Below, piece by piece: positions 12,001-38,159 of a DNA stretch of 64,000 nt. The notes beneath the pieces are model-generated. The model was not told where the DNA came from. It made no database searches and worked only from the letters and a program-made list of their open reading frames with translations. The first letter of the stretch is position 1, and each line of letters begins with the position of its first letter. Location of the stretch: contig NZ_CP050854.1 of the NCBI RefSeq assembly GCF_017569925.1, positions 1-64,000 of the forward strand, read 5' to 3'. The translations under genes and the position numbers were made by a program. Source of the stretch: Brenneria izadpanahii. GTDB lineage: Bacteria > Pseudomonadota > Gammaproteobacteria > Enterobacterales > Enterobacteriaceae.

Positions 12001-12029
12001 AATAAAAAATACGGACGGTGAGGTGCATG

Positions 12030-12335: not shown

Positions 12336-12350
12336 TTATGGGAAATAATA

Positions 12351-13667
12351 ATGGGTACGTTCAGTGAGTCATTATTTAGCGTGATTGAAAACCGCATCAG
12401 CCCGGTTGCGGCAAAACTTTCCAATCAGCGTCACGTTGTAGCAATTAAAGATGGTTTTATTGCCACCATGCCATTTTTGATTGTCGGCTCCTTTATGTTG
12501 CTATTTGCTCATCCCCCTTTCAGCGCGGACAGCCAGTGGGCGTTCGCCCAGTGGTGGCTAGGGATAGTCGAGCGTCATACCGAGCAGATCATGATGCCCT
12601 ACAATATGACCATGGGCATCATGGCGCTGTATATCTGTAGCGCGATTGCCTATAACCTGGCACAAAGCTACAAAATGAACGGCTTTATGGCGGCCTGCCT
12701 GGCGCTGATGTCGTTCCTGGTGACGGCGGCGCCGCAAAGCGACGGCAGCTTGCCGGTGGGATCGCTGGGGGGCGAGGGGATCTTTACCGCCATTCTGGTT
12801 GCGCTCTATGCCACGGAACTGATGCATTTCCTGCAGAAGCATAACATCGGTATCCGGCTGCCGGAGCAGGTGCCGCCGAAGATCCGCCAGTCTTTTGATC
12901 TGTTGATTCCGATCCTGGCCATTTTCCTGACGCTGTTTCCGCTCAGCCTGTTTATTCAAAGCCAGTTCGGCATGCTGTTGCCGCAGGCGATTATGGCGAT
13001 CTTCGCGCCGATTATCTCCGCTTCGGATTCGCTGCCCGCCATTTTGATCGCCGTGCTGTTATGCCATTTGCTGTGGTTTGCCGGGATCCACGGCGCGGTG
13101 ATCGTCGGGGGGATCTTGCAGGCTTTCTGGCTGACCAATCTGGGTCTTAACCAGCAGGCGCTAAATGCGGGCGCGCCTATCACTCAAATCTTTATCGAAC
13201 CATTCTGGCAGTTCTTTATCGTGGTGGGGGGCTCCGGTTCGACCATGGGCCTGGTGTTCCTTTATCTGCGCAGCCGTTCGGCTCATCTGCGCTCCATTGG
13301 CAAACTGGCCGTCGTTCCCAGTATGTTCAATATCAACGAACCGGTGATTTTTGGCTCTCCGGTGGTCATGAACCCGCTGTTGTTTATTCCGTTCATTACC
13401 GCGCCATTGGTCAACGCCGTTATCGCTTACGTCGCCACCAGAACCTCGCTGGTCAACCATGTGGTGTCGCTCGCTCCCTGGACAACGCCGGCGCCGATCG
13501 GCGCGGCCTGGTCCACCGGTTGGGATTGGCGGGCCATTGTGCTGGTCGGCGTACTGATTGTGGTGTCGGCGGTGATTTACTATCCGTTCTTCAAGATGTA
13601 CGAACGCCAGCTTTTAGCGCAGGAAAAAGAGACGATGCAAACCGAGGGGGTTACTGATGGAGCTTGA
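12351..13667 (+). CDS. PTS lactose/cellobiose-family enzyme IIC permease
   Basis: The 438-residue membrane component binds and translocates the sugar while EIIB phosphorylates it. It shows about ten hydrophobic segments and the family signature around FNINEPVIFGSPVVMNP (NEPxxFG, in the substrate-binding loop), with the HLLWFAGIHGAVIVGG region upstream. Length and motifs fit ChbC/CelB. The gene starts 15 bases after the IIB stop and overlaps the IIA start by 11 bases, so all three are translated together. The likely substrate is cellobiose, arbutin/salicin or a similar plant beta-glucoside. Confidence 0.94.
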   Translation: MGTFSESLFSVIENRISPVAAKLSNQRHVVAIKDGFIATMPFLIVGSFMLLFAHPPFSADSQWAFAQWWLGIVERHTEQIMMPYNMTMGIMALYICSAIAYNLAQSYKMNGFMAACLALMSFLVTAAPQSDGSLPVGSLGGEGIFTAILVALYATELMHFLQKHNIGIRLPEQVPPKIRQSFDLLIPILAIFLTLFPLSLFIQSQFGMLLPQAIMAIFAPIISASDSLPAILIAVLLCHLLWFAGIHGAVIVGGILQAFWLTNLGLNQQALNAGAPITQIFIEPFWQFFIVVGGSGSTMGLVFLYLRSRSAHLRSIGKLAVVPSMFNINEPVIFGSPVVMNPLLFIPFITAPLVNAVIAYVATRTSLVNHVVSLAPWTTPAPIGAAWSTGWDWRAIVLVGVLIVVSAVIYYPFFKMYERQLLAQEKETMQTEGVTDGA

Positions 13668-13977
13668 TGAAAACACGGTAATGGCGCTGATTATTCATGC
13701 CGGAGAAGCCCGTTCCAGCGCAATGGAAGCCCTGAGAGCCGCAAGAAAATATGACTGGGACCAGGCGGATGCGCTGCTGGCCGACGCCTCTGCCGCCGCG
13801 CGTAAGGCGCATCAGATTCAGACCGAACTGATCGGCGCGGATGAAGGGAGCGGAAAAATTCCGGTCAACCTGATTCTGGTCCATGCGCAGGATCATCTGA
13901 TGAATGCGATGCTGTGCCGCGAACTGGTTGAGGAACTTATTTATCTGCATAAGCGGATTGCCGCGCTTGCGCCTTAA
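13657..13977 (+). CDS. PTS lactose/cellobiose-family enzyme IIA
   Basis: The 106-residue all-helical EIIA takes phosphate from HPr. The phosphorylated histidine is His76 in NLILVHAQDHLMNAML, the usual VHAQDHLM motif. The N-terminus has IIHAGEARSSAMEALRAA, matching the ChbA/LacF trimer-forming helices. Its start lies inside the end of the IIC gene (11-base overlap). A short hairpin (ACCGGC-GAAT-GCCGGT, 14013-14028) with a modest T stretch follows and may thin out transcription before the glucosidase gene. Confidence 0.93.
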   Translation: MELDENTVMALIIHAGEARSSAMEALRAARKYDWDQADALLADASAAARKAHQIQTELIGADEGSGKIPVNLILVHAQDHLMNAMLCRELVEELIYLHKRIAALAP

Positions 13978-14046
13978 GCCGCTCGCGTATCGCGTTAACG
14001 CCAACCGTTTTTACCGGCGAATGCCGGTTTCTTTATCAAAAGCTAA

Positions 14047-15504
<1,458 letters not shown>

Positions 15505-24581: not shown

Positions 24582-26381
24582 ATGACGTCGCCGGTTATGT
24601 CGGTATCGCATCTCACCACGGCTTTTCAGGTGAACGGCGAGTGGATGAATGTCGTGCGCGATCTGTCTTTCGCCATCGGTGAAAAAGAAACCGTCGCGGT
24701 AGTGGGCGAATCCGGTTCGGGCAAGAGCGTGATGGCGAAATCCATCATGCGGCTATTGCCCGCCGGGCAAAGCCAGGTCAGCGGGGAGATTCATTTCGGC
24801 GGCGTCGAACTGCTCTCCCTATCGCCCAGAGAGATGCGGGATGTGCGCGGCAACCGCATCGGGATGATTTTTCAGGAACCGATGACCAGCCTCAATCCGG
24901 TATTGCCGATCGGCTATCAGATTACCGAGGTGCTGCGTCAACACCGGGGAATGGATAAGGCGCAGGCGCGGGCGGAGGCGGTGCGCCTGCTGGAAAGAGT
25001 GCGCATTCCCGGCGCCAAATCGCGCTTGCATGAGTATCCGCAAAGTTTTTCCGGCGGGATGCGCCAGCGGGTGGTGATCGCCATCGCGCTGGCGTGCAAT
25101 CCACGGCTATTGATTGCCGATGAACCGACCACGGCGCTGGATGTCACCATTCAGGCGCAGATATTGGCGTTGATTAAAACCCTTCAGGAAGAGGAAGGGA
25201 TGTCGGTATTGTTTATTACCCATGATATGGGCGTGGTGGCCGAAGTCTCTGACCGCACGTTAGTCATGCATCAGGGCGAAATGGTTGAAAACGCCGCCAC
25301 CAGAGAAATTTTTCATCATCCCCAACATCCTTACACCCGCATGTTGCTGTCCGCCGTACCCAAATTGGGCTCTATGGCGGGAACCGATTGGCCGCAGCGT
25401 TTTCCGCTGGTGGATCGTCAGACGGGCGAAAGCCTGCCGATACCGGAAACGGTCAGTACGGTTCGCGGCGACCAACCGGTACTGGCGGTGAAAAATCTGG
25501 TGACCCGCTTTGATATCCGATCCGGTTTTTTCCGGCGGCTGTCCGGGCGGGTGCATGCGGTGGAAAACGTCTCTTTCGATCTGTGGCCCGGCGAAACCTT
25601 GTCTTTGGTGGGCGAGTCGGGCTGCGGAAAATCCACCACCGGGCGCTCAATCATCCGTCTGACCGAAGCGAACAGCGGAGAGATTCTGGTTCAGGGGCGG
25701 GATATCCTCACGGCGGATAAAAATGACCTGTCCGAGCGCCGGCGGTTAATTCAGATGGTGTTTCAAGACCCTTACGAAAGCCTGAATCCGAGAATACGGG
25801 TGGGCGACGCCATTGCCGAACCGATGCTGGCTCATGGTCTGGCCGGCGCCAAACAGGTTCATGCCCGCGTCAGGGAACTGCTGGAACAGGTCGGTTTACC
25901 GGGCTGGATGGCCGAACGTTTCCCCCATCAGTTTTCCGGCGGACAACGGCAGCGCGTATGCATCGCCAGAGCGCTGGCGCTGGAACCGAAAATCATCATC
26001 GCCGACGAGTCGGTTTCGGCGCTGGATGTATCCGTCAAGGCGCAGGTCATCAATCTGATGATGGATTTACAACAGAAATTGGGGCTTTCTTTCCTGTTTA
26101 TTTCCCATGACATGGCGGTCGTTGAGCGCATCAGCCACCGGGTCGCGGTGATGTATCTGGGGGAGATCGTCGAGATTGGGCCGCGTTCCGCCATCTTTGA
26201 TAATCCGCAGCATGATTATACCCGCCGCCTGATTGCGGCGGTGCCGGTGCCCGATCCGGATACCAGACCGGTTCGCGCCCTCTATAGCGATGAACTGCAA
26301 AGCCCGGTGAGGCCGCCGGACTATATCTGTCCTGAACGCAGTTATCGGGAAGTCTCTCTCGGCCATTTCGTGCAGATCTAG
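24582..26381 (+). CDS. Fused dual ABC transporter ATPase (DppD-DppF type)
   Basis: A 599-residue protein containing two complete ATPase halves, so one gene replaces separate DppD and DppF subunits, as in GsiA. The first half has Walker [10 protein letters not shown] near residue 45, signature FSGGMRQR and Walker [13 protein letters not shown]. The second half has Walker [10 protein letters not shown] near residue 350, signature FSGGQRQR and Walker B IIIADESVSALD, where Ser replaces the usual Pro. The oligopeptide-type C-terminal extension of each half is present. The start is ATG 24582, preceded by AAGGGGG, rather than in-frame starts inside the permease gene. It ends the operon. Confidence 0.94.
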   Translation: MTSPVMSVSHLTTAFQVNGEWMNVVRDLSFAIGEKETVAVVGESGSGKSVMAKSIMRLLPAGQSQVSGEIHFGGVELLSLSPREMRDVRGNRIGMIFQEPMTSLNPVLPIGYQITEVLRQHRGMDKAQARAEAVRLLERVRIPGAKSRLHEYPQSFSGGMRQRVVIAIALACNPRLLIADEPTTALDVTIQAQILALIKTLQEEEGMSVLFITHDMGVVAEVSDRTLVMHQGEMVENAATREIFHHPQHPYTRMLLSAVPKLGSMAGTDWPQRFPLVDRQTGESLPIPETVSTVRGDQPVLAVKNLVTRFDIRSGFFRRLSGRVHAVENVSFDLWPGETLSLVGESGCGKSTTGRSIIRLTEANSGEILVQGRDILTADKNDLSERRRLIQMVFQDPYESLNPRIRVGDAIAEPMLAHGLAGAKQVHARVRELLEQVGLPGWMAERFPHQFSGGQRQRVCIARALALEPKIIIADESVSALDVSVKAQVINLMMDLQQKLGLSFLFISHDMAVVERISHRVAVMYLGEIVEIGPRSAIFDNPQHDYTRRLIAAVPVPDPDTRPVRALYSDELQSPVRPPDYICPERSYREVSLGHFVQI

Positions 26382-26518
26382 GCGCGCGGCGTCTGATGCG
26401 GGGATCGGCGGCCGCACGTCATCCTATGGTGCGGCCGCCGTAGCGTTTGGCAATAGAATCCGCGGCTACCGGCGATCAGTAATATTATCGCCAAGTGCGA
26501 AAAGGACGTCGAACCGCC

Positions 26519-27658
26519 TCAGCTTTGCGACGCTTTCTGCGGGATATAAGTGTTGGCGACCACCTCGCCCTGGGAGCCGACCGCGCGCAGCGGCGCGGGG
26601 TGCGCCAGATCGAGATGCGGAAACAGCAGTTCGCCGACCCGATAGGCCTCTTCCAGATGCGGATAACCCGAAAGAATAAAGGTATCGATGCCGAGATCGG
26701 CATACTCCTGAATACGCGCGGCGACCGTTGGCCCGTCGCCCACCAGCGCCGTACCGGCTCCGCCGCGTACCAACCCGACCCCGGCCCACAGATTGGGGCT
26801 GATTTCCAGATGGTCCTTTTTCCCGCCGTGCAGCGCAGCCATACGCTGCTGTCCGACCGAATCGAAGCGGGCAAGGGCGGCCTGCGCGGCGGCGATGGTG
26901 TCGTCATCCAGATGCGCGATCAGCCGATCGGCGGCCTGCCAGGCTTCTTCCGTGGTTTCGCGCACGATAACATGCAGCCGGATGCCGAACCGCACCTGGC
27001 GGCCTTTGGCCTGCGCTTTGACCCGCACCTCTTCCAGCTTTTCTTTTACCTGTGCGGGCGGCTCGCCCCAGGTCAGATAAAGATCGACCTGATCGGCCGC
27101 CAAATCTTGCGCCGCCGCGGAGGAGCCGCCGAAATAAAGCGGCGGACGCGGCTGCTGCACCGGCGGATACAGCAGCTTGGCGTCTTTTACCTTAAGGTGC
27201 TTGCCTTCAAAGTCGACCGTTTCGCCTTCCAGCAGCCTGCGCCAGATGTGGGTAAATTCGGCGGACGCCTCATAACGCTCGTCATGGCTGAGAAACAGCC
27301 CTTCCGCGGCCAGTTCTTCGGGATCGCCGCCGGTGACCAGATTGAAAAGCGCGCGGCCGTTTGACAGCCGATCCAGCGTGGCGGCCTGACGCGCGGCGAT
27401 GGTCGGCGAGATGACGCCGGGGCGCAGCGCCACTAAAAATTTCAGCCGCTGCGTCACCGGGATTAATGAGGCGGCGACCAGCCAGGAGTCCTCGCAGGAA
27501 CGTCCGGTCGGCAGCAGCACGCCGCCAAATCCCTGCCGTTCAGCGGCCTGCGCCACCTGTTGCAAATAGCTGTGATCCACATGGCGCGCGCCCTCTGAAC
27601 TGCCGAGATAGCGACCGTCGCCGTGGGTGGGTAAAAACCAGAATACGTTAAGACTCAT
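26519..27658 (-). CDS. ssuD: FMNH2-dependent alkanesulfonate monooxygenase
   Basis: SsuD releases sulfite from C2-C10 alkanesulfonates using reduced flavin and oxygen, for use when sulfate is scarce. The 379-residue luciferase-like TIM-barrel protein starts [19 protein letters not shown], as E. coli SsuD (381). It also has [20 protein letters not shown] and [21 protein letters not shown] strong ribosome site (AGGAGATAACACG) precedes the ATG. ssuA lies just upstream on the same strand. The flavin reductase ssuE and the permease/ATPase genes ssuC and ssuB are not in the window. Confidence 0.96.
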
Positions 27659-27705
27659 CGTGTTATCTCCTGTAGATCGATCTCTCCGGGCTATCCGGCA
27701 TCATG

Positions 27706-28710
27706 TCATTGGGCCTGGGGCCGCCAGACGCGCTGGGAAACATCAACTTTTACCGGCACCAGCCGATTTTCATAAAACAGGTCGGCGGTATATTGCTGCG
27801 CTTCGATCGTTGGCTGTTCCAGCGGTTTGATTGTCGTCGGCGGGCGATGGTCCAGCGCGGCGGCAATCACCTGTTCCGGCAGACCAATCGCGTTCGCCAA
27901 CAGCGTGATGCTTTGCGCGCGCTCGCTTAGCGTCAGCGCATCTGCCTGGGTTAATACATCCAGCACCTGGCGGATAAAGGCGCCATGCGCTTCGGTATAT
28001 GGACGGGCGGCCAGATAGAAAGAGCCTGTCTGGTTCAGACCGTCGCCATCGGCCAGCACTCTGACGCCGCCCTGCAATAAAGCGGCGGAGTAATAGGGAT
28101 CCCAGATGGTCCAGGCGTCGACGTTGCCTTGTTGAAACGCCGCGCGGGCGTCGGCGGGAGTCAGATAGACAGGCTGAATATCCGAGAAAGACAAGCCCGC
28201 TTTTTGTAGCGACCTCAGCAGCAAATTGTGCGAGCTGGAGCCTTTCTGAAACGCGACTTTACGGCCTTTTAGATCGGCGACGGTTTTGATGGGGCTATCT
28301 TCGGCCACCAGAATCACTTCGGCTTTGGGTTTTGGCGGCTCAACGCCGACGTACAGTAAATCGGCCCCGGCGGCCTGAGCGAAAATGGGCGGAATATCGC
28401 CGGTACTGCCCAGATCGATACTGCCGACGTTAAGCGCTTCCAGCATTTGCGGACCGGCCGGAAATTCAATCCAGCTGATCTTGGTTTGAGGGAACCGTTT
28501 CTCCAGCAGCTGATGGGATTTAGCCAGCACCAGGCTGACCGAGCCTTTCTGATAGCCAATCCGGAACTGCTCCGGCGCGGCTTCCTGCGCATGAGCGGCG
28601 CCAGTCAGCAGCGAGCTAAAGACGGCCGCCGCCGCCAGCCAGCGGCGCAACGGGCTTTGACGTCGCCGTGATATGCCCATGCTTAACGCTTGCGTTGAAT
28701 CCTTCATCAT
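27706..28710 (-). CDS. ssuA: Aliphatic sulfonate-binding protein SsuA
   Basis: A periplasmic binding protein for alkanesulfonates, 334 residues from the chosen ATG at 28710, which has AGGTG 7 bases upstream. A GTG at 28719 also fits the frame. The signal peptide is unusually long and basic (SRRRQSPLRRWLAAAAVFSS), with predicted cleavage after GAAHA. Mature features are FRIGYQKGSVSLVLAK, GSIDLGSTGDIPPIFAQAAG and GRKVAFQKGSSSHNLLLR, all typical of SsuA. It heads a two-gene ssuAD unit; the rest of the importer must be elsewhere or lost. Confidence 0.95.
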   Translation of the reverse strand: MMKDSTQALSMGISRRRQSPLRRWLAAAAVFSSLLTGAAHAQEAAPEQFRIGYQKGSVSLVLAKSHQLLEKRFPQTKISWIEFPAGPQMLEALNVGSIDLGSTGDIPPIFAQAAGADLLYVGVEPPKPKAEVILVAEDSPIKTVADLKGRKVAFQKGSSSHNLLLRSLQKAGLSFSDIQPVYLTPADARAAFQQGNVDAWTIWDPYYSAALLQGGVRVLADGDGLNQTGSFYLAARPYTEAHGAFIRQVLDVLTQADALTLSERAQSITLLANAIGLPEQVIAAALDHRPPTTIKPLEQPTIEAQQYTADLFYENRLVPVKVDVSQRVWRPQAQ

Positions 28711-29139
28711 GTATATCACCTGTAGATAGAGCGCTTATAACCAAAAGTTAAAATAAAGTGATAATTTGCAACATTGGGGTGATAAACATAACAGGCGTTA
28801 TGCGGATTTTTTAAATCTCAATTTCTGGTTTTGATAGCTAAAAAGGGGAAAAGAAATGGATGCCGGCTTCTCTTTCTTTCCCGATGATCGGTTATTTTGA
28901 CGCTCACCCTGGCTGCTTGACTTCAGTAAGCTACAGCGGAGTAATGAGAGACGAGACAATCTGTCTCTCGCCGCCGATTGTTCAAATTTCTTTCCGGCGA
29001 ATCTTTATTTTTTTGCCGCTCTGAAGCCGCGTCAAATCTATGGATATATATTTTTAATGTGACTGGTATCCCAAAAAGCTATAAACAGTTAGACAACTGT
29101 TAAAAATACGTGCTAGTTATAAAACAAGCCGCAGATACA
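28711..29139. other. Intergenic region between ssuA and the antitermination operon
   Basis: No convincing gene. The left part must hold the ssuA promoter (minus strand). A plus-strand candidate promoter is TTGACT (28917-28922), then 17 bases, then AGTAAT (28940-28945). A hairpin GAGAGAC...GTCTCTC lies at 28946-28969. A perfect 7-base-pair inverted repeat AACAGTT-AGAC-AACTGTT at 29084-29101 resembles a repressor operator. Which promoter drives the downstream operon is unresolved. Confidence 0.45.
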
Positions 29140-29199
29140 CTATTAAAACATTATCCGGTGATAATCTTTTAATAGTTTCGGAATGGCGAAAGCCGGAAA
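29140..29199 (+). ncRNA. Structured leader elements upstream of the GlpP-type operon
   Basis: Two hairpins sit in tandem in the presumed 5' leader. The first is almost perfect: CTATTAAAACATTATC (29140-29155) pairs with GATAATCTTTTAATAG (29160-29175) across a CGGT loop, with a single C-C mismatch in 16 pairs. The second, at about 29176-29199, has a GGC-GAAA-GCC core (29185-29194), i.e. a GNRA-type tetraloop, with outer TTTC/GAAA pairing. They precede the leader terminator by about 70 bases. They may be protein-binding or antiterminator elements. As DNA, the first could instead be an operator. Confidence 0.55.
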
Positions 29200-29270
29200 A
29201 ACTACATAAAACAGCGTTTTGTTGGTTGTGTTATTAAACAAACCGTTGTTAATAGGGTCAGTGAACTGAA

Positions 29271-29316
29271 AGCCCTCAGAGATTTAAACAATCTCTGAGG
29301 GCTTTTTTTATTTTTT
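29271..29316 (+). terminator. Leader terminator just before the first gene of the operon
   Basis: A perfect 14-base-pair stem, AGCCCTCAGAGATT (29271-29284) with AATCTCTGAGGGCT (29290-29303), closes a 5-base loop and runs into TTTTTTTATTTTTT. It ends about 18 bases before the ATG of the aldolase gene (29335) and just ahead of its ribosome site AAGGAG. A terminator here would stop every transcript before the operon unless it is overridden. The second gene of the operon encodes a GlpP-family antiterminator, so regulated readthrough is the natural reading. Confidence 0.9.
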
Positions 29317-29334
29317 AAATAAGGAGTTGGAGTC

Positions 29335-30126
29335 ATGTCAAAAAAACGTCGGTTATCCAGAGTTTTTGCTCAAGATGGTAAATCTGTTACGTTGGCACTG
29401 GATGGGTACTATTTTTCCACCAAAACAGCAGGCGTTGACGATACGCTAAAAAGCCTGCCCGTATTGATTGAAAAAGGGCTGGATTGTGTTTTGGTCACCT
29501 ACGGTATGGCAAAAAATTATGAAGCGGAATTAATGAATATTCCAATTGTGCTGCGGGTAGACAGCACCGTAAATATTTTTGATAACACCGTTCCTGACAC
29601 AAAAGGGGTTTTTTCTGTTGAAGATGCATTAAAAATCGGGGCCGATGGCGTGGTGTGCATGACATTCCCCGGCGCGTTTAATGAAGAGAAAACTCACGAT
29701 TTGGCCATGAAACTGGCACAGGCCGCCGATGCCTGGAATTTACCGCTAATTGTTGAATCGTTGCCTTACGGCTACCCGGTTACCAATAGCGAATCCAACA
29801 GCCCTGACGTGATTGCCGCCGCTGCCCGCATTGCCGTGGAATTAGGGGCCGATGTCATCAAAACCCGCTTTTCAGGAAGCGCCGCAGACCGCTTGATTGT
29901 TGAGGCGGCCGGTGTTCCCGTGCTGGCGTTAGGCGGCCCGAAAACCGATATTCTAAGTTATTTTGAATTCGTACAGCACTGTATGAACATGGGGGCGAAA
30001 GGTGTCGCCGTAGGCAGAAATATTACTCAAGACCCCAAACCCGCCCACGTTGTAGCAGGTCTACACGCCATCATTCATGAAAATGCAACACCGGAAGATG
30101 CGTATGGCCTCTATATGAAAAAATAG
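29335..30126 (+). CDS. Class I aldolase of the DhnA/FbaB/LsrF family
   Basis: A 263-residue TIM-barrel aldolase of the DeoC/LacD/FbaB superfamily. The Schiff-base lysine is Lys176 in ELGADVIKTRFSG, and the phosphate-binding region follows in VLALGGPKTD and GAKGVAVGRNITQ. Members cleave or form sugar phosphates (fructose-1,6-bisphosphate, phospho-autoinducer-2 and others); which one cannot be told here. It is the first gene after the leader terminator and is followed 18 bases later by the antiterminator gene. With the kinase and dehydrogenases downstream it is a good candidate for the final cleavage step of a sugar or polyol pathway. Confidence 0.9.
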   Translation: MSKKRRLSRVFAQDGKSVTLALDGYYFSTKTAGVDDTLKSLPVLIEKGLDCVLVTYGMAKNYEAELMNIPIVLRVDSTVNIFDNTVPDTKGVFSVEDALKIGADGVVCMTFPGAFNEEKTHDLAMKLAQAADAWNLPLIVESLPYGYPVTNSESNSPDVIAAAARIAVELGADVIKTRFSGSAADRLIVEAAGVPVLALGGPKTDILSYFEFVQHCMNMGAKGVAVGRNITQDPKPAHVVAGLHAIIHENATPEDAYGLYMKK

Positions 30127-30144
30127 AAATCTGGACAACTCTCT

Positions 30145-30696
30145 ATGATGTTAAATAACACCGTCATACCCTCGGTCAGACGCTATAAAAATTTTGAGAA
30201 AGCGCTTTCCTGTGAATCAGAATATATTTTATTGTCGGAAGCCGATATAGGTAACTTACAGTCCCTGGTAGGGAAATGTCATAAAAGAAATAAAAAGGTT
30301 CTGATTCATTTAGAACTTTTGGGCGGGTTCAAACCCGATCCGTGCGGCCTCTCCGTATTAAAAAAGATCTACAAGGTGGACGGTGTTATTTCCTCTAATT
30401 TTACTGCGTTACGATATGCAAAAAAGGAGGGGTTAATCACTATCTATAGAATATTGCTCATTGACTCCAGAGCGTTAGACCAATCCATCGACATCGTAAA
30501 AAATAATTCAATCGATGTTGTTGAATTGCTGCCGGCGGAGTATGCGTGCTTATGTTTCGATTTGCTAAAAAATAACTTTAAAAATCTTAATGTAAAGTTC
30601 ATCGCCGGTGGTTTTGTAAAAAGAAAATATTTAGTCGATAGGATCTTTTACACCGGGTTTGACGGTATTACCACCAGTGAACCCAGCTTATGGTAA
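30145..30696 (+). CDS. GlpP-family antiterminator (PF04309; YgcP-like)
   Basis: A 183-residue protein of the glycerol-3-phosphate-responsive antiterminator family. It shows the family landmarks in order: VIPSVRRYKNFEKAL, EYILLSEADIGNLQSLV, HKRNKKVLIHLELLGG, VDGVISSNFTALRYAKKEGL, YRILLIDSRALDQS, DVVELLPA, KFIAGGFV and GITTSEPSLW. In Bacillus, GlpP with glycerol-3-phosphate binds leader mRNA and prevents termination. The family is mainly Firmicutes; the uncharacterised E. coli YgcP is a known enterobacterial relative. It is noticeably more AT-rich than its neighbours, suggesting transfer. It probably acts on the terminator at 29271-29316 and senses a phosphorylated intermediate. Confidence 0.9.
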   Translation: MMLNNTVIPSVRRYKNFEKALSCESEYILLSEADIGNLQSLVGKCHKRNKKVLIHLELLGGFKPDPCGLSVLKKIYKVDGVISSNFTALRYAKKEGLITIYRILLIDSRALDQSIDIVKNNSIDVVELLPAEYACLCFDLLKNNFKNLNVKFIAGGFVKRKYLVDRIFYTGFDGITTSEPSLW

Positions 30697-30724
30697 ATAA
30701 TCATTATAAAAATCCGAGGCGGTC

Positions 30725-32263
30725 ATGAAAAATAAATATGTCATGGGTATTGATAATGGCGGCACCGTAACAAAAGCAGCTATTTATGATATGCAAGGCC
30801 ATGCGCTTGCCATTGCGTCCAATGCCACCCGAATGTTAACGCCCAAACCGTTTTACACCGAACGGGATATTAAAGAGCTGTGGGAATCAAATATTAAAGT
30901 CATCAAAAAAGCGGTTATTGATGCCGGGATTGATGCCGTCGATATCGTGGGAATATCCGTAACCGGGCACGGTAATGGCTTGTATCTGGTCGATGAAGCG
31001 GGGAATCCCGTCAGAAACGGAATTATCTCCACCGATTACCGGGCAAAAGACTATGTTGAAAAATGGTACCGGACGGACGAGTTTGAAAGGGACATTCTTC
31101 CCAAGACCATGCAGTCAATCTGGGCCGGGCAACCCGTTGCGCTGCTGGCATGGTTGAACGATCGCGAACCGCAAGCCATAACAAAGACAAAATATATCTT
31201 TATGGTGAAAGATCTGATTCGTTACTACCTTACCGGGGAAGCCTATCTGGAGTTGACCGACATCTCCGGCACCAATCTGATCAGCGTACGTGACCGAGAT
31301 TATGATGACGAACTGCTGGACTTCTGGGGGATCCGCGCCTGGAAAGACAAGCTGCCGCCTATCCGGCTTTCGACGGAATGCTGCGGGCGGATTACCCGGC
31401 AAGTCGCCGAACTGACCGGATTAGCGGCGGGAACGCCGGTATCCGGCGGCGTGTTTGATATATCGGCGTCATCCATTGCGTCAGGCATCAACGAGATCAA
31501 TAAACTGGCGATCGTCACCGGCACGTGGAGCATTAATGAGTATGTCACGGATGAACCGGTAGTTGATAAAAACCTATTTATGACCTCCATTTACCCTCTG
31601 GAGGACAAGTGGCTGATAACGGAGGCCAGCCCTACCTCGGCCAGTAATCTGGAATGGTTTATCAACAATTTTATGGCCAGCGATAAACATCTGGAGCAGG
31701 AAAAAGGCAAATCTATTTATGCCTTATGCAACGATCTGGTCGCATCGACCAATCCGCAAGAGAGTCATTTACTGTTTTTCCCCTTTGTTTTCGGTTCAAA
31801 CACCATACCTGACGCCACCGCCGGATTTATTGGCGTAAATAGTTTTCATAAAAAAGAGCACTTCCTGCGGGCGATTTACGAAGGCGTCGCATTCAGCCAC
31901 CTGTATCACACCGAACGGTTAAGAGCCATCAATCCCCAGCTCAGCGATGTCGTCCGGGTCGCCGGCGGTATCGCCAATTCAGATATCTGGCTACAGATCT
32001 TTTCAGATATATTCCAGTGCTCATTAGAAATCGTGGACGTAAAGGAACACGGTACGTTAGGCGCCGCCATGACGGCTACGGTGATGTGCGGGTACTACCA
32101 GGATATTTTTGCGGCATCGAATAATATGGTTAATGTGTCGAAAACTATTCGGCCGAATAAAGATAACCAGGAAATTTATCAGAAAAAGTATCAACTCTAT
32201 AAAACGATTCTGAAAGACATGCAGCTGCCGTGGCAATCCTGCAGTCGCTATGTCATAGAATAA
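30725..32263 (+). CDS. FGGY-family carbohydrate kinase, LyxK-like
   Basis: A 512-residue sugar kinase of the FGGY family. The N-terminal phosphate-binding motif is MGIDNGGTVTKAAIYD. The first-domain ERDIKELWESNIKVIKKA follows, then the ATP-site VTGTWSINEYV. The FGGY C-terminal signature is RVAGGIANSDIWLQIFSDIF. By eye it resembles E. coli LyxK (L-xylulose kinase) more than YgcE or XylB (SPTSASNLEWF, LFFFPFVFGSN-like and IYEGVAFSHLYH segments are shared). The substrate is probably a ketose or polyol of 4-6 carbons. A kinase and a PTS membrane protein in one operon is unusual, since PTS import already phosphorylates. Confidence 0.9.
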   Translation: MKNKYVMGIDNGGTVTKAAIYDMQGHALAIASNATRMLTPKPFYTERDIKELWESNIKVIKKAVIDAGIDAVDIVGISVTGHGNGLYLVDEAGNPVRNGIISTDYRAKDYVEKWYRTDEFERDILPKTMQSIWAGQPVALLAWLNDREPQAITKTKYIFMVKDLIRYYLTGEAYLELTDISGTNLISVRDRDYDDELLDFWGIRAWKDKLPPIRLSTECCGRITRQVAELTGLAAGTPVSGGVFDISASSIASGINEINKLAIVTGTWSINEYVTDEPVVDKNLFMTSIYPLEDKWLITEASPTSASNLEWFINNFMASDKHLEQEKGKSIYALCNDLVASTNPQESHLLFFPFVFGSNTIPDATAGFIGVNSFHKKEHFLRAIYEGVAFSHLYHTERLRAINPQLSDVVRVAGGIANSDIWLQIFSDIFQCSLEIVDVKEHGTLGAAMTATVMCGYYQDIFAASNNMVNVSKTIRPNKDNQEIYQKKYQLYKTILKDMQLPWQSCSRYVIE

Positions 32264-32278
32264 TTTCGGAGCAATAAT

Positions 32279-33040
32279 ATGGATCTTAATCTGAAAAACA
32301 AGAACGCCATTATTACGGGCGGAGCTACTGGATTAGGTCGCGAATTCGTTCTCTCGCTGGCTAAAGAGGGGGTGAATATCGGTTTTACCTATCTTAGTGA
32401 AAAAGAAAATCCTGACGCATTGATTCAGGAAGTAAACAATATTTCCAACGTTAATATTATTGGCATAAAAACAAACCTGGCGGATGATAAAGAGATCGCC
32501 GGATTATTTGAAAAAAGTGTCGCCACACTGGGGAATATCGATATTTTGATTAACAACGCCGGCATCTGGCTTTCCGGTTATGTGAATGACATAACGCTGG
32601 AAGATTGGGATCTGGTAATGAACGTGAATTTAAAATCCGTGTTCTATCTCAGCCAGCTTTTTGTGAATCACTGTATTCATGAAAATAAAGCGGGATCCAT
32701 CTTAAATGTCACCTCGCAGGCCGCTTTTCATGGTTCGACCACCGGTCATGCCCACTATGCGGCCAGTAAAGCAGGCCTGGTCGCCTTTTCTATTTCCCTG
32801 GCCAGGGAAGTCGCCAAGCAAAAGATTAATGTAAACAACATTGCCATCGGCATTATGGATACCCCCATGATCCGAAAAAATCTTACAGAAAATCCAGACT
32901 ACTACGTGAACAGGATCCCCATTGGCCGTGTGGCGTCGCCGCATGAAATTTCTGAGATCGGGGTATTTCTGGTTTCTCCGAAAGCAAGCTATATGACCGG
33001 GGCGACCGTCGATGTGACCGGCGGGATGCTGATGCGCTAA
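32279..33040 (+). CDS. Short-chain dehydrogenase/reductase
   Basis: A 253-residue classical SDR. The cofactor motif TGGATGLGRE is near residues 13-22. NNAGIWLSG follows near 90, then the catalytic Ser region (LNVTSQAAFHGS) and YAASK (Tyr and Lys of the active site) near 160. Such enzymes oxidise polyols or reduce keto sugars. It starts 15 bases after the kinase stop with a GGAG ribosome site. An SDR next to a FGGY kinase and a GlpP-like regulator is also the arrangement in the E. coli ygc cluster (YgcW/YgcE/YgcP). Confidence 0.92.
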   Translation: MDLNLKNKNAIITGGATGLGREFVLSLAKEGVNIGFTYLSEKENPDALIQEVNNISNVNIIGIKTNLADDKEIAGLFEKSVATLGNIDILINNAGIWLSGYVNDITLEDWDLVMNVNLKSVFYLSQLFVNHCIHENKAGSILNVTSQAAFHGSTTGHAHYAASKAGLVAFSISLAREVAKQKINVNNIAIGIMDTPMIRKNLTENPDYYVNRIPIGRVASPHEISEIGVFLVSPKASYMTGATVDVTGGMLMR

Positions 33041-33057
33041 CCATGAGGAGGAGTAAA

Positions 33058-34065
33058 ATGAAGTGTCTTGCTATTGCGGATCTTTTTATCAATAAAGCCA
33101 CTATGGATTCAGGACTGCAAAAACTTAAGGATAACGGTATTGAAGTCATTGTCAGGGAATGGAAGCACGAATCAATTGAAAAGCTTCAACTGGATAATTT
33201 GCAGATTGAACAACAAGGCGCCGAGGCCGTGCAATTGCCCGCAGCCTTGCTGGAAGGTATTGAAGATATTGATGTGATCATTACGCAGTTCGCGCCCGTC
33301 AATATCTCGGTAATGGAAAAGGCCGGGAAACTAAAATATATCGGCGTATTAAGAGGCGGAATTGAAAATATCAATACCGGTTACGCTCGTCAAAAAGGCA
33401 TCGCCGTATTAAATACCCCTGGGCGTAATGCGAGAAGCGTAGCGGAGTTTACAATAGGCATGATGTTGGCGGAGACCAGAAACATAGCCAGGGCGCATGA
33501 TGCGTTAAAAGGTAAATATTGGCGAAAAGACTTTCCCAATCAGGCATGTATTCCGGAGTTGGGCGGGAAAACCATCGGGTTGGTCGGATTCGGTCATATT
33601 GCTCAACTGGTGGCGAAATTCCTCAGCGCCTTCGACGTGAACATCATTTTCTTTGATAAATATGTCGAACATCACGCGCGCTATAAAAAGATAAATGACC
33701 TGGATGAACTGGTAAAAGAAGCCGACATTATTTCTGTTCATGCGCGTCTGACGGAAGAGACGCAAAATTTGATAAATTCCCATCATTTCAGGCTAATGAA
33801 GAAAAACGCCGTCATTATCAACACGGCGCGTTCAGGGCTGATTAATGAACGGGATCTGCTGCAGGCATTGCAGGAAAAGCGCATTATGGGGGCGGCGATC
33901 GATACCTTCGATAATGAGCCATTACAAGATAATAGCGCGTTTTATGCACTGGACAATGTGACTATTACTCCCCATATGGCGGGCAGCACGATTGATGCCT
34001 TCAGCAATACGCCGAAACTTTTCGCCGATATCCTGCTGGAGAAATTAGATAAAGGTAAGGAATGA
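33058..34065 (+). CDS. D-isomer specific 2-hydroxyacid dehydrogenase
   Basis: A 335-residue NAD-dependent dehydrogenase of the phosphoglycerate/erythronate dehydrogenase type. The Rossmann motif is GLVGFGHIAQLVAKF (GxGxxA/G). The catalytic Arg lies in VHARLTEETQN and the Glu/His pair in DNEPL and TPHMAGSTIDA. I chose ATG 33058 because GGAGGAG precedes it; an ATG at 33043 would swallow that ribosome site. It starts 17 bases after the SDR gene. In this operon it may convert a sugar-acid (D-2-hydroxyacid) intermediate. The substrate is unknown. Confidence 0.9.
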   Translation: MKCLAIADLFINKATMDSGLQKLKDNGIEVIVREWKHESIEKLQLDNLQIEQQGAEAVQLPAALLEGIEDIDVIITQFAPVNISVMEKAGKLKYIGVLRGGIENINTGYARQKGIAVLNTPGRNARSVAEFTIGMMLAETRNIARAHDALKGKYWRKDFPNQACIPELGGKTIGLVGFGHIAQLVAKFLSAFDVNIIFFDKYVEHHARYKKINDLDELVKEADIISVHARLTEETQNLINSHHFRLMKKNAVIINTARSGLINERDLLQALQEKRIMGAAIDTFDNEPLQDNSAFYALDNVTITPHMAGSTIDAFSNTPKLFADILLEKLDKGKE

Positions 34066-34169
34066 AGATTAAGTTTTAAAATCAACGAATTTATCAATCA
34101 TCTATTACATAAAATTGGCGCTTATTATGTGCCTTTTATGCCGTGTTCCTTTTCTCGTAAGGGCGTACT

Positions 34170-35432
34170 ATGGATATTATAAATAGTATTATCGGTCTTG
34201 GCGCATCAGTAATGATGCCCATTATATTCTTCATCATCGCATTATGCTTCGGTGTGAAAATAGGCTCTGCTTTTAAGGCCGGTATGCTTGTCGGCATCGG
34301 TTTTGAAGCCGTCGGTCTGGTAATTAATCTATTATTGACGAATCTGGGGCCAGCCTCTCAGGCTATGGTGGAGCGGATAGGGTTGTCATTGACCGTTGTC
34401 GATACCGGCTGGCCGACCGCATCGACAATAGGATGGGGCTCCCCTATCATGTTGCCTGTGGTGGTGGGATTCATCGTCATTAATCTGGTCATGCTGCTTT
34501 TAAAACTGACGAAAACGGTGAATATCGATATCTTTAATTACTGGATATTCCTGATAGTCGGCTCCGTAGTTTATGCGGGAACCCACAATTATTGGTTATC
34601 GGTAGGCTTCACTTTCGTTATTTTTATCTTGACGCTGATAGCGGCGGATTTTACCGCGCCTTACATCCAGCGCAATTACAACCTGAAAGGCATTTCATTC
34701 CCCCATTTAACCTGTATTGTTTATGTCCCTTTCGGTATCGTGACCAATTTTTTATTGGAAAAGACGCCGTTAATTAAAAAGATAAATCTAGAGCCGGAGC
34801 ATATTAATAAAAAGTTCGGCGTATTCGGAGAACCGCTGACGCTGGGATTCATATTGGGGCTGGCGCTTGCGTTTTTAGCGGGATACCGCATCGCCGATGC
34901 GGTATCGCTGGCGATAAAAGTCTCGGCCGCTATGCTGCTACTGCCGAAAATGATTGAGATTCTGATCCAGGGCTTGCTCATTGTGCGTGATGCGGCTGAG
35001 GATAAGCTAAAAAAGAAGTATCCCGATCGGGACTTCTATATTGGTATGGATACCGCGCTGCTGATCGGCGAGCCTTCGGTTCTGGCGACGGGGTTGCTGT
35101 TGATCCCGATGGCGGTGGTTCTGTCGGTCATTCTGCCGGGCAACCGGGTACTTCCCTTCGTCGATCTGGCTTCCCTGATGTTCCTGATGGCGATGATTAC
35201 CCCTTTCTGCAAACGCAATATGTTCCGAATGTTTATTTCCGGCACCTTAGTGCTGGTCTCTATTCTTTATGTCGGCACCGATATTTCCACCGAATACACC
35301 CAGGCGGCCGTTAATTCAAATATTCCAATTCCTGAGGGGATGTCTGAGATCACCAACATCGTTGGCGGCGCAACGACGCCGATCGGATGGCTGGCGGTAA
35401 AACTTGGAGAGTTCTTCAGTAGCGGCGCCTAA
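34170..35432 (+). CDS. PTS galactitol-family enzyme IIC (GatC-like), orphan
   Basis: A 420-residue integral membrane protein of the PTS galactitol EIIC family. It has about ten hydrophobic segments and family landmarks GASVMMPIIFFIIALCFGVK, GWPTASTIGWGSPIMLPVV, GTHNYWLSVGF, and the C-terminal PIGWLAVKLGEF. The EIIA and EIIB partners that must phosphorylate the substrate are absent from the operon and from the window. It is 104 bases after the dehydrogenase gene and ends the operon. Either remote IIA/IIB serve it, or it works as an unphosphorylating permease, leaving the FGGY kinase to add phosphate. Confidence 0.9.
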   Translation: MDIINSIIGLGASVMMPIIFFIIALCFGVKIGSAFKAGMLVGIGFEAVGLVINLLLTNLGPASQAMVERIGLSLTVVDTGWPTASTIGWGSPIMLPVVVGFIVINLVMLLLKLTKTVNIDIFNYWIFLIVGSVVYAGTHNYWLSVGFTFVIFILTLIAADFTAPYIQRNYNLKGISFPHLTCIVYVPFGIVTNFLLEKTPLIKKINLEPEHINKKFGVFGEPLTLGFILGLALAFLAGYRIADAVSLAIKVSAAMLLLPKMIEILIQGLLIVRDAAEDKLKKKYPDRDFYIGMDTALLIGEPSVLATGLLLIPMAVVLSVILPGNRVLPFVDLASLMFLMAMITPFCKRNMFRMFISGTLVLVSILYVGTDISTEYTQAAVNSNIPIPEGMSEITNIVGGATTPIGWLAVKLGEFFSSGA

Positions 35433-35492
35433 CAGACGCGGTAAAAGATGAAACGGAGGAGAACGTCCGCATTGCCCTTTTTCTTCGTTTAT

Positions 35493-35529
35493 AAAAAAAC
35501 CGGATTGTCCTGATGATGGGACAATCCGG
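35493..35529 (-). terminator. Intrinsic terminator of the DUF1471 gene
   Basis: CCGGATTGTCC (35500-35510) pairs perfectly with GGACAATCCGG (35519-35529). On the minus strand the stem is followed by a run of seven T (AAAAAAA at 35493-35499 on the plus strand). It lies 37 bases past the stop of the minus-strand gene. Confidence 0.85.
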
Positions 35530-35565
35530 GGGAAGGCAGGTGAAATGGTGTGATAACCGACGGTA

Positions 35566-35823
35566 TTAGTTATAAAGTTCCGCAGTACCACGCATCTGGT
35601 CATTACCGGTTGCTGAAGTGATGGTGAAGGCTTTAGCGCCGGCCTTATCGGCTTTTTCAGCCAACTGGGCTTTCAACGTGTCCAGATCAAATGCCGTAGC
35701 GGAAACTACTCCCACTTTTTCCATGCTCTGAGCTTGCTGGGCAGAGACATACTCAGCGGCGGAAGCGCCGAAAGAGACGGTAGCGAGTACAACGGCAGCA
35801 GCGATCGTTTTTACGTTTTTCAT
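35566..35823 (-). CDS. DUF1471 (YdgH/BhsA/McbA-like) small periplasmic protein
   Basis: An 85-residue secreted protein of the YhcN/BhsA family, whose members are induced by stress and influence biofilm and acid or peroxide tolerance. The signal peptide (MKNVKTIAAAVVLATVSFGASA) is cleaved before AEYVSAQQAQ. The DUF1471 core is MEKVGVVSATAFDLDTL, KADKAGAKAFTITSA and MRGTAELYN at the extreme C-terminus. A clear ribosome site (AGGATAAG) and terminator make it a self-contained gene. Expression is probably stress-controlled, but no specific operator is visible. Confidence 0.93.
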   Translation of the reverse strand: MKNVKTIAAAVVLATVSFGASAAEYVSAQQAQSMEKVGVVSATAFDLDTLKAQLAEKADKAGAKAFTITSATGNDQMRGTAELYN

Positions 35824-36058
35824 AATGTCTTATCCTATTCTGCATGATGGAATGAAAGGTCATCGCCTTTCGATAACAAAAAGGTTACGCCGATGTTTAT
35901 CTGCTGGAAATCTAATGTTTTTGATGGCTGTGTTCAAATTTTTTGAATTAAAAATGGTGTAATTGTTCTTATTTTTTAAATGTAAAACAAACGCTTATAC
36001 ATAAAACTGAAATATATTTACAATCTATTGAAGTTTATTATTTTTACGGGGTGATATT

Positions 36059-37345
36059 TTGCATGAAGAACTACAGTTAACTTTTAATGCTATTGGTCAT
36101 CAAATTACCAATATTAATATCTGGTCATGTGATGGGAACTGGATAGTTTATGATGTTCGCCCTCACGGAAGTTCGTTCACTGGGTTGACTATTGCGCGAG
36201 TGAATATTCACACCGGGAAAAACGAGGTTGTTTATCAGGCTGGCGACGGCGCGCATGTGGGCGTCGTAACCTGCAGTCCGGTCGAGCCGTTACGCTATGT
36301 GTTTATCCACGGACCGGAACATCCCGATCGCCATTGGCAGTATGATTTTCATCACCGCCGGGGAACGATCGTCAACGACAGCCGGCGCGACAAGGCGATA
36401 ACCCTGGATGCGCTCTCGATTACGCCGCCTTACCGGGCGGGGGCGCTGCGCGGAGGAACGCACGTTCATGTCTTCAGCCCGGACGCCAGCCGCCTGAGTT
36501 TTACCTATAACGACCATGTGCTGCATGAGTATGATGCCGCGTTGGATTTACGTAATGTCGGCGTTGCCGTGCCGCTGCATCCGGTATCGGTCGAGAAACG
36601 GCATCCGCGCGAGTATGACGGCAGCCACTATTGCGTGCTGGTCAGCCGCACCACGCCGCATCCCCGGCCCGGCAGCGATGACATCAACCGCGCATATGAA
36701 GAGGGCTGGGTCGGTTCGAAAGGCTATCGTCGGCCTGATGGTTCGCGGCAACGCTGGGCGCTGGCTTTTATTGGCGATACGCTTTCGGTTAGCGGGGAAA
36801 AAGTGCCTGAAGTTTTCCTGGCCGATTTACCGGCGCAACTGGCCGGTTACGCCAAAGAGGGCGATGCGCCGTTGGCGGGCACGCCGACGACAATGCCCGC
36901 GCCGCCTGTGGGCGTACGGCAGCGTCGGTTGACGTTTACCCATCGCCGCCGCTGTCCCGGCCTGGTGAATCAGCCTCGTCACTGGCTGCGAACATCGCCG
37001 GACGGCAGCGAGATTGCCTTTTTGATGAAGGATGATGACGGGGTCGTGCAACTGTGGACGGTTTCGCCTAACGGCGGCGAGCCTCGTCAGGTGACGCGCA
37101 CGGTATCCGGCGTTCAGTCGGCCTTTAACTGGCATCCGCGCGATCGCAGATTGGCGTTTGTCTGTGATAACAGCATCATGCTGTGTGATGCCGACAGCGG
37201 AAAGTTGGTTCGTCTGACCGCCCGCACGGAAAACGCGCCCAGCGCGGACGCCGTCGTGTTTTCACCGGACGGACGGCATATCGCTTATATGCGTGAAATC
37301 GGCGGGTTTAATCAGATATTTATCGTGGCGGCTACGCCATTCTGA
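36059..37345 (+). CDS. yidR: DUF3748 family protein YidR (TolB/oligogalacturonide-lyase-like beta-propeller)
   Basis: A 428-residue protein of the YidR family. It shows repeated propeller-blade motifs of the TolB/WD40-like kind (SPDASRLSFTYND, SPDGSEIAFLMKDDD, FSPDGRHIAYMRE), related to oligogalacturonate lyase folds. No catalytic assignment is possible. The start is TTG 36059 with GGGGTG 6 bases upstream; there is no signal peptide, so it is cytoplasmic. Position next to yidQ and ibpAB matches E. coli. Confidence 0.9.
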   Translation: MHEELQLTFNAIGHQITNINIWSCDGNWIVYDVRPHGSSFTGLTIARVNIHTGKNEVVYQAGDGAHVGVVTCSPVEPLRYVFIHGPEHPDRHWQYDFHHRRGTIVNDSRRDKAITLDALSITPPYRAGALRGGTHVHVFSPDASRLSFTYNDHVLHEYDAALDLRNVGVAVPLHPVSVEKRHPREYDGSHYCVLVSRTTPHPRPGSDDINRAYEEGWVGSKGYRRPDGSRQRWALAFIGDTLSVSGEKVPEVFLADLPAQLAGYAKEGDAPLAGTPTTMPAPPVGVRQRRLTFTHRRRCPGLVNQPRHWLRTSPDGSEIAFLMKDDDGVVQLWTVSPNGGEPRQVTRTVSGVQSAFNWHPRDRRLAFVCDNSIMLCDADSGKLVRLTARTENAPSADAVVFSPDGRHIAYMREIGGFNQIFIVAATPF

Positions 37346-37392
37346 AAGCGCCGGCAAGATCTTCGGCAAAGTAAAGAATGGCGAATATCGGT

Positions 37393-37743
37393 TTAAAGCT
37401 GATTGTCCGGCGCGGCGGCGGCCGTCTGTGAACTGGCGGTGCGGTTCTGCTGTTCGCTGTGTAAGATTCGGTCGTGCATGGTGGTTTTATCACCGCCCGC
37501 ACGGTAATAGTCATAAGGCAGCAACAGGGTATCCGCTACGGCGGAGAATGGCAGATCGAGTATGACCAACGGCATCATCGCCCAACTGGTATCGTCATCG
37601 CGCAATATATCCATACTGGCCCGCGTTCCGGGATAGTACCCCTGATCGTTCCCGGTATGCGTCATGACGCTGGAACAACCGCTGGCTACCATTGCCCCGC
37701 TGCCGATGATGAAAGAAAATAAAGCACTTTTCAGCATAGTCAT
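37393..37743 (-). CDS. yidQ: YceK/YidQ family lipoprotein
   Basis: A small outer-membrane or periplasmic lipoprotein. The lipobox is ASGC, with Cys about 23 residues from the chosen start, after a hydrophobic segment (LFSFIIGSGAMVASGC). The mature part has CSSVMTHTGNDQGYYPGTRA and the family segment LVILDLPFSAVADTLLLPYDY. I chose ATG 37743 (or 37737) by comparison with E. coli YidQ; an upstream ATG at 37755 adds four residues. The function is unknown. It is convergent with yidR. Confidence 0.92.
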   Translation of the reverse strand: MTMLKSALFSFIIGSGAMVASGCSSVMTHTGNDQGYYPGTRASMDILRDDDTSWAMMPLVILDLPFSAVADTLLLPYDYYRAGGDKTTMHDRILHSEQQNRTASSQTAAAAPDNQL

Positions 37744-38159
37744 ATTATCGTCCATTAGGAGTAGGGAGGGCTTATCTGCCCTGACTCTCTATACCCTTCG
37801 TCTTTTAAGTCGCCGGCGCGTTGGCGGCGTTCATTATCCGGCCCTTTCCTGAACCTCGCCCATAAAGAGCCAACGCTTTGCGCCGTTCAAAACGACAACG
37901 TTTTGTCCTGCAACTCGAAATCTATTGGGTATATAACTTATTACCTGAAACTACAGCTTTATTTGCTGGTCTCTATCCTCTGAATCCTGCGCGAATACAT
38001 CGGAATCCGTTTGGCGGCGCCTTGAAATCCATGGCGTATCGCAGCCAGATAAGCGTGATCTTCGGCTACGCCTCGGCATCAATGGTTTAAGTGTATGTGA
38101 TAACAGGACTCTTATCGGTGAATTTTGCATGAAAAGCGATAATTTTTTCTATTAGTCTA
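37744..38159. other. Intergenic region upstream of ibpA
   Basis: About 400 bases between the yidQ start and the ibpA promoter. It holds the full dispersed repeat (37790-37933) listed separately. The right part (37934-38159) contains no convincing frame. A ~70-codon frame at 37878-38090 has no recognisable features and crosses the repeat. Confidence 0.5.
37790..37933 (+). repeat. Dispersed MITE-like repeat, copy 2 (longest)
   Basis: The 144-base element begins TATACCCTTCGTCTTTTAAG and ends CTCGAAATCTATTGGGTATA, giving short terminal inverted repeats TATACCC/GGGTATA. Internal AGAGCCAACGCTTTGCG and TTTTGTCCTGCAACTCGAA recur in copy 3 at 41617-41687, and the right end recurs in copy 1. It lies upstream of yidQ and ibpA. 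It encodes nothing. Confidence 0.65.

Follow-up and report, generated by a model that had tools for sequence, protein, structure and literature searches.

Antiterminator proteins of the BglG/SacY/LicT group act via RNA antiterminator hairpins. Antitermination by GlpP is described for Bacillus in two papers (PMC9604022, PMC7430163), and in Bacillus subtilis GlpP with bound glycerol 3-phosphate binds the antiterminator (PMC7430163). Here, a six-gene operon (29335-35432, plus strand) was analysed in a window of 64,000 nucleotides from Brenneria izadpanahii (contig NZ_CP050854.1, positions 1 to 64,000). Its second gene encodes a GlpP-family protein, the sole regulator encoded in the operon according to Pfam, and an intrinsic terminator precedes the first gene. 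This is most probably a catabolic operon under GlpP-type transcription antitermination with positive feedback, expressed from a CRP-type promoter. A preliminary description of this DNA had proposed a self-regulated GlpP operon that might also be a new branch of the E. coli ygc cluster. The first part is supported by the terminator between promoter and first gene, by GlpP as the only regulator encoded in the operon and by comparative data that tie the two together; the second part was abandoned.

The operon leader

The terminator is a perfect 16-bp stem-loop on the plus strand (29269-29305), formed by AAAGCCCTCAGAGATT (29269-29284), the loop TAAAC and AATCTCTGAGGGCTTT (29290-29305), and is followed by a U-tract, T7-A-T6 (29303-29316), whose first three T are also paired in the stem. 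The same hairpin had been listed before as a perfect 14-bp terminator at 29271-29316; its stem in fact has 16 bp and starts at 29269. Its stem is longer than any other among the 23 terminator-like sites found in 26000-38000 (14.5 ± 4.5 sites in shuffled sequence), and the ATG at 29335 follows the U-tract after 18 nt. Because the nearest gene upstream of the operon (27706-28719) faces away, this plus-strand terminator most likely ends a transcript begun in the intergenic region.

The leader was compared with those of 20 further loci carrying the operon (15 in genomes of named species, three in E. coli genomes, one in a Klebsiella pneumoniae record, and locus L054), among which L048-L050, L040 and L051, and L042 and L043 are near-duplicate rows. 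Such a comparison had been suggested in the preliminary description, and it places a terminator before the first gene in all 21 leaders. The arm GCCCUCAGAGA of this terminator is the same in every one of them, and GGGU-NNN-UGA-NNN-G together with this arm does not vary across 18 aligned rows. The hairpins past the last gene served as a control: none was found in 9 of the 21 loci, two were weak, and among the others there are at least four unlike sequences, each common to some loci only. Since the leader arm is constant and the hairpins at the 3' end of the operon are unlike, the leader terminator is under more constraint than its role as a terminator would require. An arm (GCCCTCAGAGA) unvarying in 21/21 leaders, next to 3'-end hairpins that are unlike or not found, argues for control by GlpP.

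A candidate antiterminator hairpin was located at 29254-29276 (plus strand), in which AGGGT (29254-29258) and GCCCT (29272-29276) enclose a 13-nt loop, CAGTGAACTGAAA. This pairing of the box with the terminator arm (AGGGU-N13-GCCCU) excludes the terminator. The five pairs are kept in 17 of 17 distinct rows, and the box shows a single A to G change in the alignment, with pairing kept. We propose that RNA would start at a CRP-type promoter, some 200 nt before the first gene is reached. In the absence of inducer, the leader hairpins P1 and P2 and the terminator would fold and transcription would stop at about 29310, GlpP being first made from basal read-through. With inducer, GlpP would bind the hairpin at 29254-29276 (AGGGU, a loop containing NN-[GU]UGA-NNN-G, and GCCCU); since the 3' strand and the end of the loop are the base of the 5' arm of the terminator, the latter could not close and polymerase would read into the six genes. 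As ligand, a phosphorylated sugar or polyol would serve, for example the product of the kinase, dihydroxyacetone phosphate (DHAP) or glycerol 3-phosphate. Both the RNA binding by this GlpP and the read-through are predictions.

The promoter elements lie on the plus strand upstream of the hairpins. A CRP-like box, TGTGACTGGTATCCCA (29058-29073), is centred about 60 nt before the predicted start at about 29126, and the leader comparison gave a -35 element, TAGACA (29090-29095), with an extended -10 element, TGC-TAGTTA (29111-29119), 18 nt past it. The same arrangement (CRP-like box, T[AG]GACA or close to it, 18 nt, TGN-TAG) is found upstream of the terminator in 21/21 leaders, being recognised at constant spacing, with the CRP box at a class I distance, by regular expression in 19 and read by eye in two (L038 and L045). 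These conserved elements agree with the promoter that had been presumed upstream of the terminator, only the 18 nt mentioned above being left between U-tract and ATG. A simple sigma-70 scan does not list this promoter. The conserved box suggests that CRP acts on the operon promoter.

Folding of the leader RNA gave P1 (29139-29176, plus strand), which shows covariation, and P2 (29210-29250, plus strand), which ends 3 nt before the box and whose covariation is below significance (both on 15 rows, Providencia left out). Every one of the 18 leaders folded has 5' hairpins, P2 just ahead of the box, and the terminator. The presence of these hairpins and the covariation of P1 would fit a ribosome-dependent attenuator or a metabolite riboswitch, with GlpP acting elsewhere or not at all, but this explanation is very improbable: the sequences of P1 and P2 vary between lineages, no reading frame is conserved, and no Rfam match in 28600-35700 exceeds its gathering score. 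A leader peptide was rejected on the frames, since the stop of the box frame varies over the 21 leaders and no short frame is common to the six leaders scanned, and a known riboswitch or leader RNA was rejected on the Rfam scores (ten matches with E up to 1).

GlpP clades and distribution of the leader element

The GlpP-family protein (30145-30696, plus strand, 183 aa, the second gene) passes the Pfam family G3P_antiterm (PF04309) with 146.6 bits against a gathering score of 27 (E = 6.3e-43), and is the only PF04309 protein in the genome of the window. It shares about 25-31% identity with the other GlpPs in the alignment and keeps the residues that are invariant across 35 rows including Gram-positive GlpPs (G61, G80, R102, D107, S108, E127, P130, G156 and W183). 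A BglG/PRD antiterminator was rejected, as Pfam shows only G3P_antiterm in the regulator and no CAT or PRD domain. The family had been taken to be known mainly from Firmicutes; this is corrected by a survey of 295 sampled genomes of the family to which the window belongs, in which PF04309 is over the cut-off in 41, of which 35 have at least 200 bits and were taken as YgcP-type.

A tree of 60 GlpP rows places the protein of the window in a group of 39 (100/99) that includes Gram-positive rows. Inside it, 25 enterobacterial aldolase-operon rows form a group of their own (100/99); tree row P0161 is labelled as aldolase-linked without contig evidence. Seven YgcP rows form a separate group (100/99), and a YgcP branch was therefore rejected for the GlpP of the window. 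The kinase is 22% identical to its ygc-type relative (one locus, L062) and the oxidoreductase 30-33%, and together with the separate GlpP clade these values speak against a new ygc branch. In the case of eight Gram-positive-type GlpP clusters (P0030, P0031, P0157, P0158, P0162, P0163, P0167 and P0169), the longest contig matches in length one listed for the aldolase, suggesting that GlpP and aldolase are linked there too. A third enterobacterial GlpP group (L055-L058) is found in operons with other genes, where the leader pattern found no antiterminator hairpin of the GlpP kind.

A covariance model of the window-type leader element (R1) has one strong site in the genome of the window (75.3 bits), followed by its reverse-strand mirror (37.3) and the next match (28.3); a wider regulon was rejected on this single site. 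Over 392 family genomes, R1 gives some match in 148 (E up to 0.1) and strong sites in five (73.7-82.3 bits), the next scores being those of true-site mirrors (42.3 bits) and of an unrelated site (41.6 bits). The window's GlpP clade (E up to 1e-20) is present in the same five genomes and in no others, which shows that the element belongs to the operon, without a second strong target in these genomes. The AGGGT box is in none of the eight weaker R1 matches inspected (L085, L092-L097, L101); in L092, AGGCT...AGCCC stands at the end of a gene.

This distribution bears on another possibility, that the transcript from promoter to terminator is chiefly a trans-acting small RNA and the operon is read by chance read-through. 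Promoter and strong terminator do delimit a transcript of about 185 nt. However, its conserved parts are the box and the terminator arm adjoining the operon, and the strong element is confined to the five genomes with this GlpP clade, so we give a small RNA hardly any credence.

The six-gene order is kept in 20/20 other loci, broken copies counted, and the hosts (Klebsiella, Citrobacter, Enterobacter, Erwinia, Providencia, E. coli and others) are gut- and plant-associated bacteria. Among E. coli genomes, 3 of 5,426 were matched, and a search of virus contigs found no relatives. The operon has probably moved sideways between genomes, because this GlpP was not found in the four other sampled genomes of the window's genus and is nearest in the tree to that of Providencia. 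Several loci deserve separate mention. In Erwinia persicina NBRC 102418 (L047:10001-10548), the GlpP gene is split over two frames past about codon 100 and the leader element is intact. The FGGY kinase matches in more than one frame in Providencia rettgeri RB151 (L038:10597-12119) and in P. stuartii NCTC11800 (L042:10841-12348), and may be broken or misassembled in both. The Klebsiella pneumoniae record CP125156.1 (5.37 Mb) is a plasmid by filing and a chromosome by size.

Leaders of YgcP and Gram-positive GlpP proteins

Thirteen leaders of the form AGTTACT-A-GAGA-N4-GAGA-AA-AGTAACT, running into a terminator, are found in seven of the nine YgcP-type loci (L059-L067); the pattern is not matched in L059 and L064. 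A CRP-like box lies upstream in 12 of them, and in the thirteenth it is cut off by the end of the sequence displayed. These leaders are at ygcW and yqcE; a first scan of YgcP loci had found no convincing terminator before ygcNOP (seven loci; one match, L065). In E. coli K-12 MG1655 (NC_000913.3), two GlpP-type antiterminator-terminator leaders, predicted targets of YgcP, stand back to back (L107:12300-12570, 2900299-2900569): that of ygcW on the minus strand (L107:12300-12363, record 2900299-2900362) and that of yqcE-ygcE (L107:12507-12570, record 2900506-2900569). Promoters of ygcW and yqcE are tabulated in PMC3946193. The ygcW-yqcE region of L063 matches 5,029 of 5,426 E. coli genomes, the leaders themselves having been read in K-12 and one other strain (L108).

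The antiterminator helix of the YgcP leaders is 94.5% paired over 14 leaders (13 distinct), and three pairs are changed on both sides; alignments A7 and A8 exclude one irregularly spaced leader (L062, minus strand, 10241). The paired percentage, changed cells and covariation score of the helix were reached by 0/500 shuffles and its number of changed pairs by 12/500, with further pair types no better than shuffled, figures that are not a probability because the leader rows are related. A model of these leaders (R2) matches 35 of the 295 family genomes (E up to 1e-5), with two separate sites in 33, and these are exactly the genomes with a PF04309 match of at least 200 bits (in a sample of the same size and handles). 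The co-occurrence is limited as proof by the linkage of site and YgcP gene, which lie 3.1-6.3 kb apart in eight of nine genomes compared and on different contigs in one. R2 has no site in the genome of the window. The ygc cluster appears to use the same kind of leader switch.

Gram-positive leaders were read in records of Cytobacillus, Listeria, Paenibacillus, Staphylococcus and Acetoanaerobium. Nine regions preceding glpF or glpD were covered, and in seven the base of a leader terminator carries GAGA-N1-4-GAGA; the motif with a terminator is not in region L079, and L081 offers only a 28-nt gap inside an operon. Two more sites lie between glpP and the next gene (L069 and L072, out of six glpP loci), which encodes a haloacid dehalogenase (HAD) phosphatase by annotation in L072 and a HAD-like protein by our own reading in L069. 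Motif and terminator are not found beside glpP in L070, L071, L080 and L082, the last having a near match, GAGA-ATTT-GAGT. Of the 18 occurrences of the motif in 220,308 strand-bases of these loci, 10 are leader sites. The flanks of these 10 sites pair better than flanks permuted among them (94.6 versus 59.7 ± 11.2; p = 0.0009, 20,000 permutations), in a test where L069 site 11016 was found with R1 and is not independent, and where the scoring rule was set after the sites were seen. The GlpP target looks like a short hairpin with the two repeats in its loop, its 3' strand forming the base of the terminator arm. Downstream of glpP in Paenibacillus (L069:10960-11110), and after two ATP-binding cassette (ABC) permease-like frames, a leader with AGGGT...ACCCC, GAGA-N4-GAGA and a terminator stands between the enterobacterial and Bacillus forms.

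The short hairpin overlapping the terminator base in Gram-positive GlpP leaders also, and in YgcP leaders with compensatory changes, supports GlpP-type antitermination in the window. The window loop, CA-GUGA-ACU-GAAA, and the Acetoanaerobium loop, AG-GAGA-UGG-GAGA, share a 2+4+3+4 layout, and 6 of 8 repeat positions are alike; the chance of at least 6/8 is 0.005 (fixed register, leader composition). The resemblance to GAGA/GAGA loops is suggestive only. Several points weigh against our interpretation. The match is just 6/8 in 15 of the 21 leaders, the window's among them, and lower in the other 6, and 4,103 nt of leader sequence hold 48 comparable GAGA-type matches at other places. Of the five AGGGU/GCCCU pairs, four are constant, so the window-type alignment offers no covariation test of the antiterminator helix. 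The isolated hairpin is weak (-4.1 to -6.7 kcal/mol, versus -23.3 to -28.0 for the terminator) and would thus need bound protein. Element and gene are linked, which makes their co-occurrence partly trivial and not independent proof of binding. Finally, the Gram-positive members of the window's GlpP clade were compared as proteins alone.

The weak hairpin, beyond the reach of a covariation test, would also fit a GlpP that works without it, binding single-stranded [GU]UGA-N3-GAA beside and within the terminator base and blocking its closing, with AGGGU as a sequence contact only. The UGA and the next G are invariant, and GAAA forms the first terminator pairs, as such binding would have it. Against this, the only change in AGGGU keeps the pair, and the matching helix in YgcP leaders has both-side changes in three pairs; we therefore think hairpin-free binding unlikely.

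Returning to the hairpin-based mechanism, we lean towards a single GlpP RNA architecture across phyla (a short hairpin, a loop of about 13-15 nt with two purine-rich repeats, and a 3' strand that is the terminator base), with clades split in sequence and ligand. Bacilli would use glycerol 3-phosphate and GAGA/GAGA, YgcP GAGA/GAGA (ygcW, yqcE), and the window's clade an aldolase-pathway phosphate and GGGU...UGA...GAA. This would extend GlpP antitermination, known mainly from Bacillus, to Enterobacterales with a stated RNA target, and the paired protein clades and RNA elements would be a natural case of divergence in protein-RNA specificity. Two E. coli K-12 switches, the ygcW and yqcE leaders, are predicted under YgcP, annotated only as a putative antiterminator. 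If this is true, K-12 holds a working GlpP-type antitermination switch so far unrecognised, and the leaders would offer a direct way to the inducer and the substrate of two sugar pathways not yet characterised. The open-licence literature gave no account of the operon or of YgcP targets; the GAGA motif may stand in classic GlpP papers.

Operon enzymes and known systems

All six plus-strand reading frames lie where they had been placed before, with Pfam domains in the expected order. Around GlpP, these are a DhnA-type class I aldolase (DeoC/LacD; 29335-30126, 263 aa, E = 1.4e-25), an FGGY carbohydrate kinase (30725-32263, 512 aa), a short-chain dehydrogenase/reductase (SDR) oxidoreductase (32279-33040, 253 aa), a D-2-hydroxyacid dehydrogenase (33043-34065, 340 aa) and, as the sixth gene, an EIIC-GAT permease (34170-35432, 420 aa, E = 8.1e-73). 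No EIIA or EIIB gene lies within the operon, and the genome has five PTS_IIB matches. One of them opens a run of plus-strand frames at 12018-15504 (105, 438, 106 and 481 aa), possibly a complete phosphotransferase system (PTS) operon.

The SDR and dehydrogenase would carry out redox steps, the kinase phosphorylation and the aldolase cleavage. The dehydrogenase is closest to phosphoglycerate dehydrogenases. For the aldolase, MJ0400 comes first, followed by class I fructose-bisphosphate (FBP) aldolase and then LsrF, with an aligned lysine that we take to be the catalytic residue. As in the autoinducer-2 system, to whose kinase LsrK the nearest solved structure of the kinase belongs, an LsrF relative is present. 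However, the LsrK/LsrF pathway was rejected, since the proteins score far under the NCBIfam cut-offs (191.7 versus 528 and 132.3 versus 297), and no Lsr transporter gene is among the six.

The E. coli YgcP cluster (ygcWUSRQ and yqcE-ygcE) shares with the operon a PF04309 protein, an FGGY kinase, an SDR and a hairpin overlapping the terminator behind a CRP-like box, but its GlpP belongs to a separate clade, and it encodes flavin adenine dinucleotide (FAD), electron transfer flavoprotein (ETF) and ferredoxin proteins, without DhnA aldolase or EIIC. The BglG/SacY/LicT systems likewise have a small protein-stabilised hairpin overlapping a terminator, and BglG is also encoded in its own operon, whereas the regulator here is of PF04309, in which Pfam finds no CAT or PRD domain. 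GlpP of B. subtilis (glpD, glpFK and glpTQ leaders; PMC9604022 and PMC7430163) resembles the predicted switch in its promoter-terminator-gene leader, GlpP-family protein, catabolite control and antitermination. A Cytobacillus relative has glpP upstream of the leader under its control, whereas GlpP of the window lies downstream of its own terminator, and the Bacillus-type loop is GAGA...GAGA, where that of the window is [GU]UGA...GAA.

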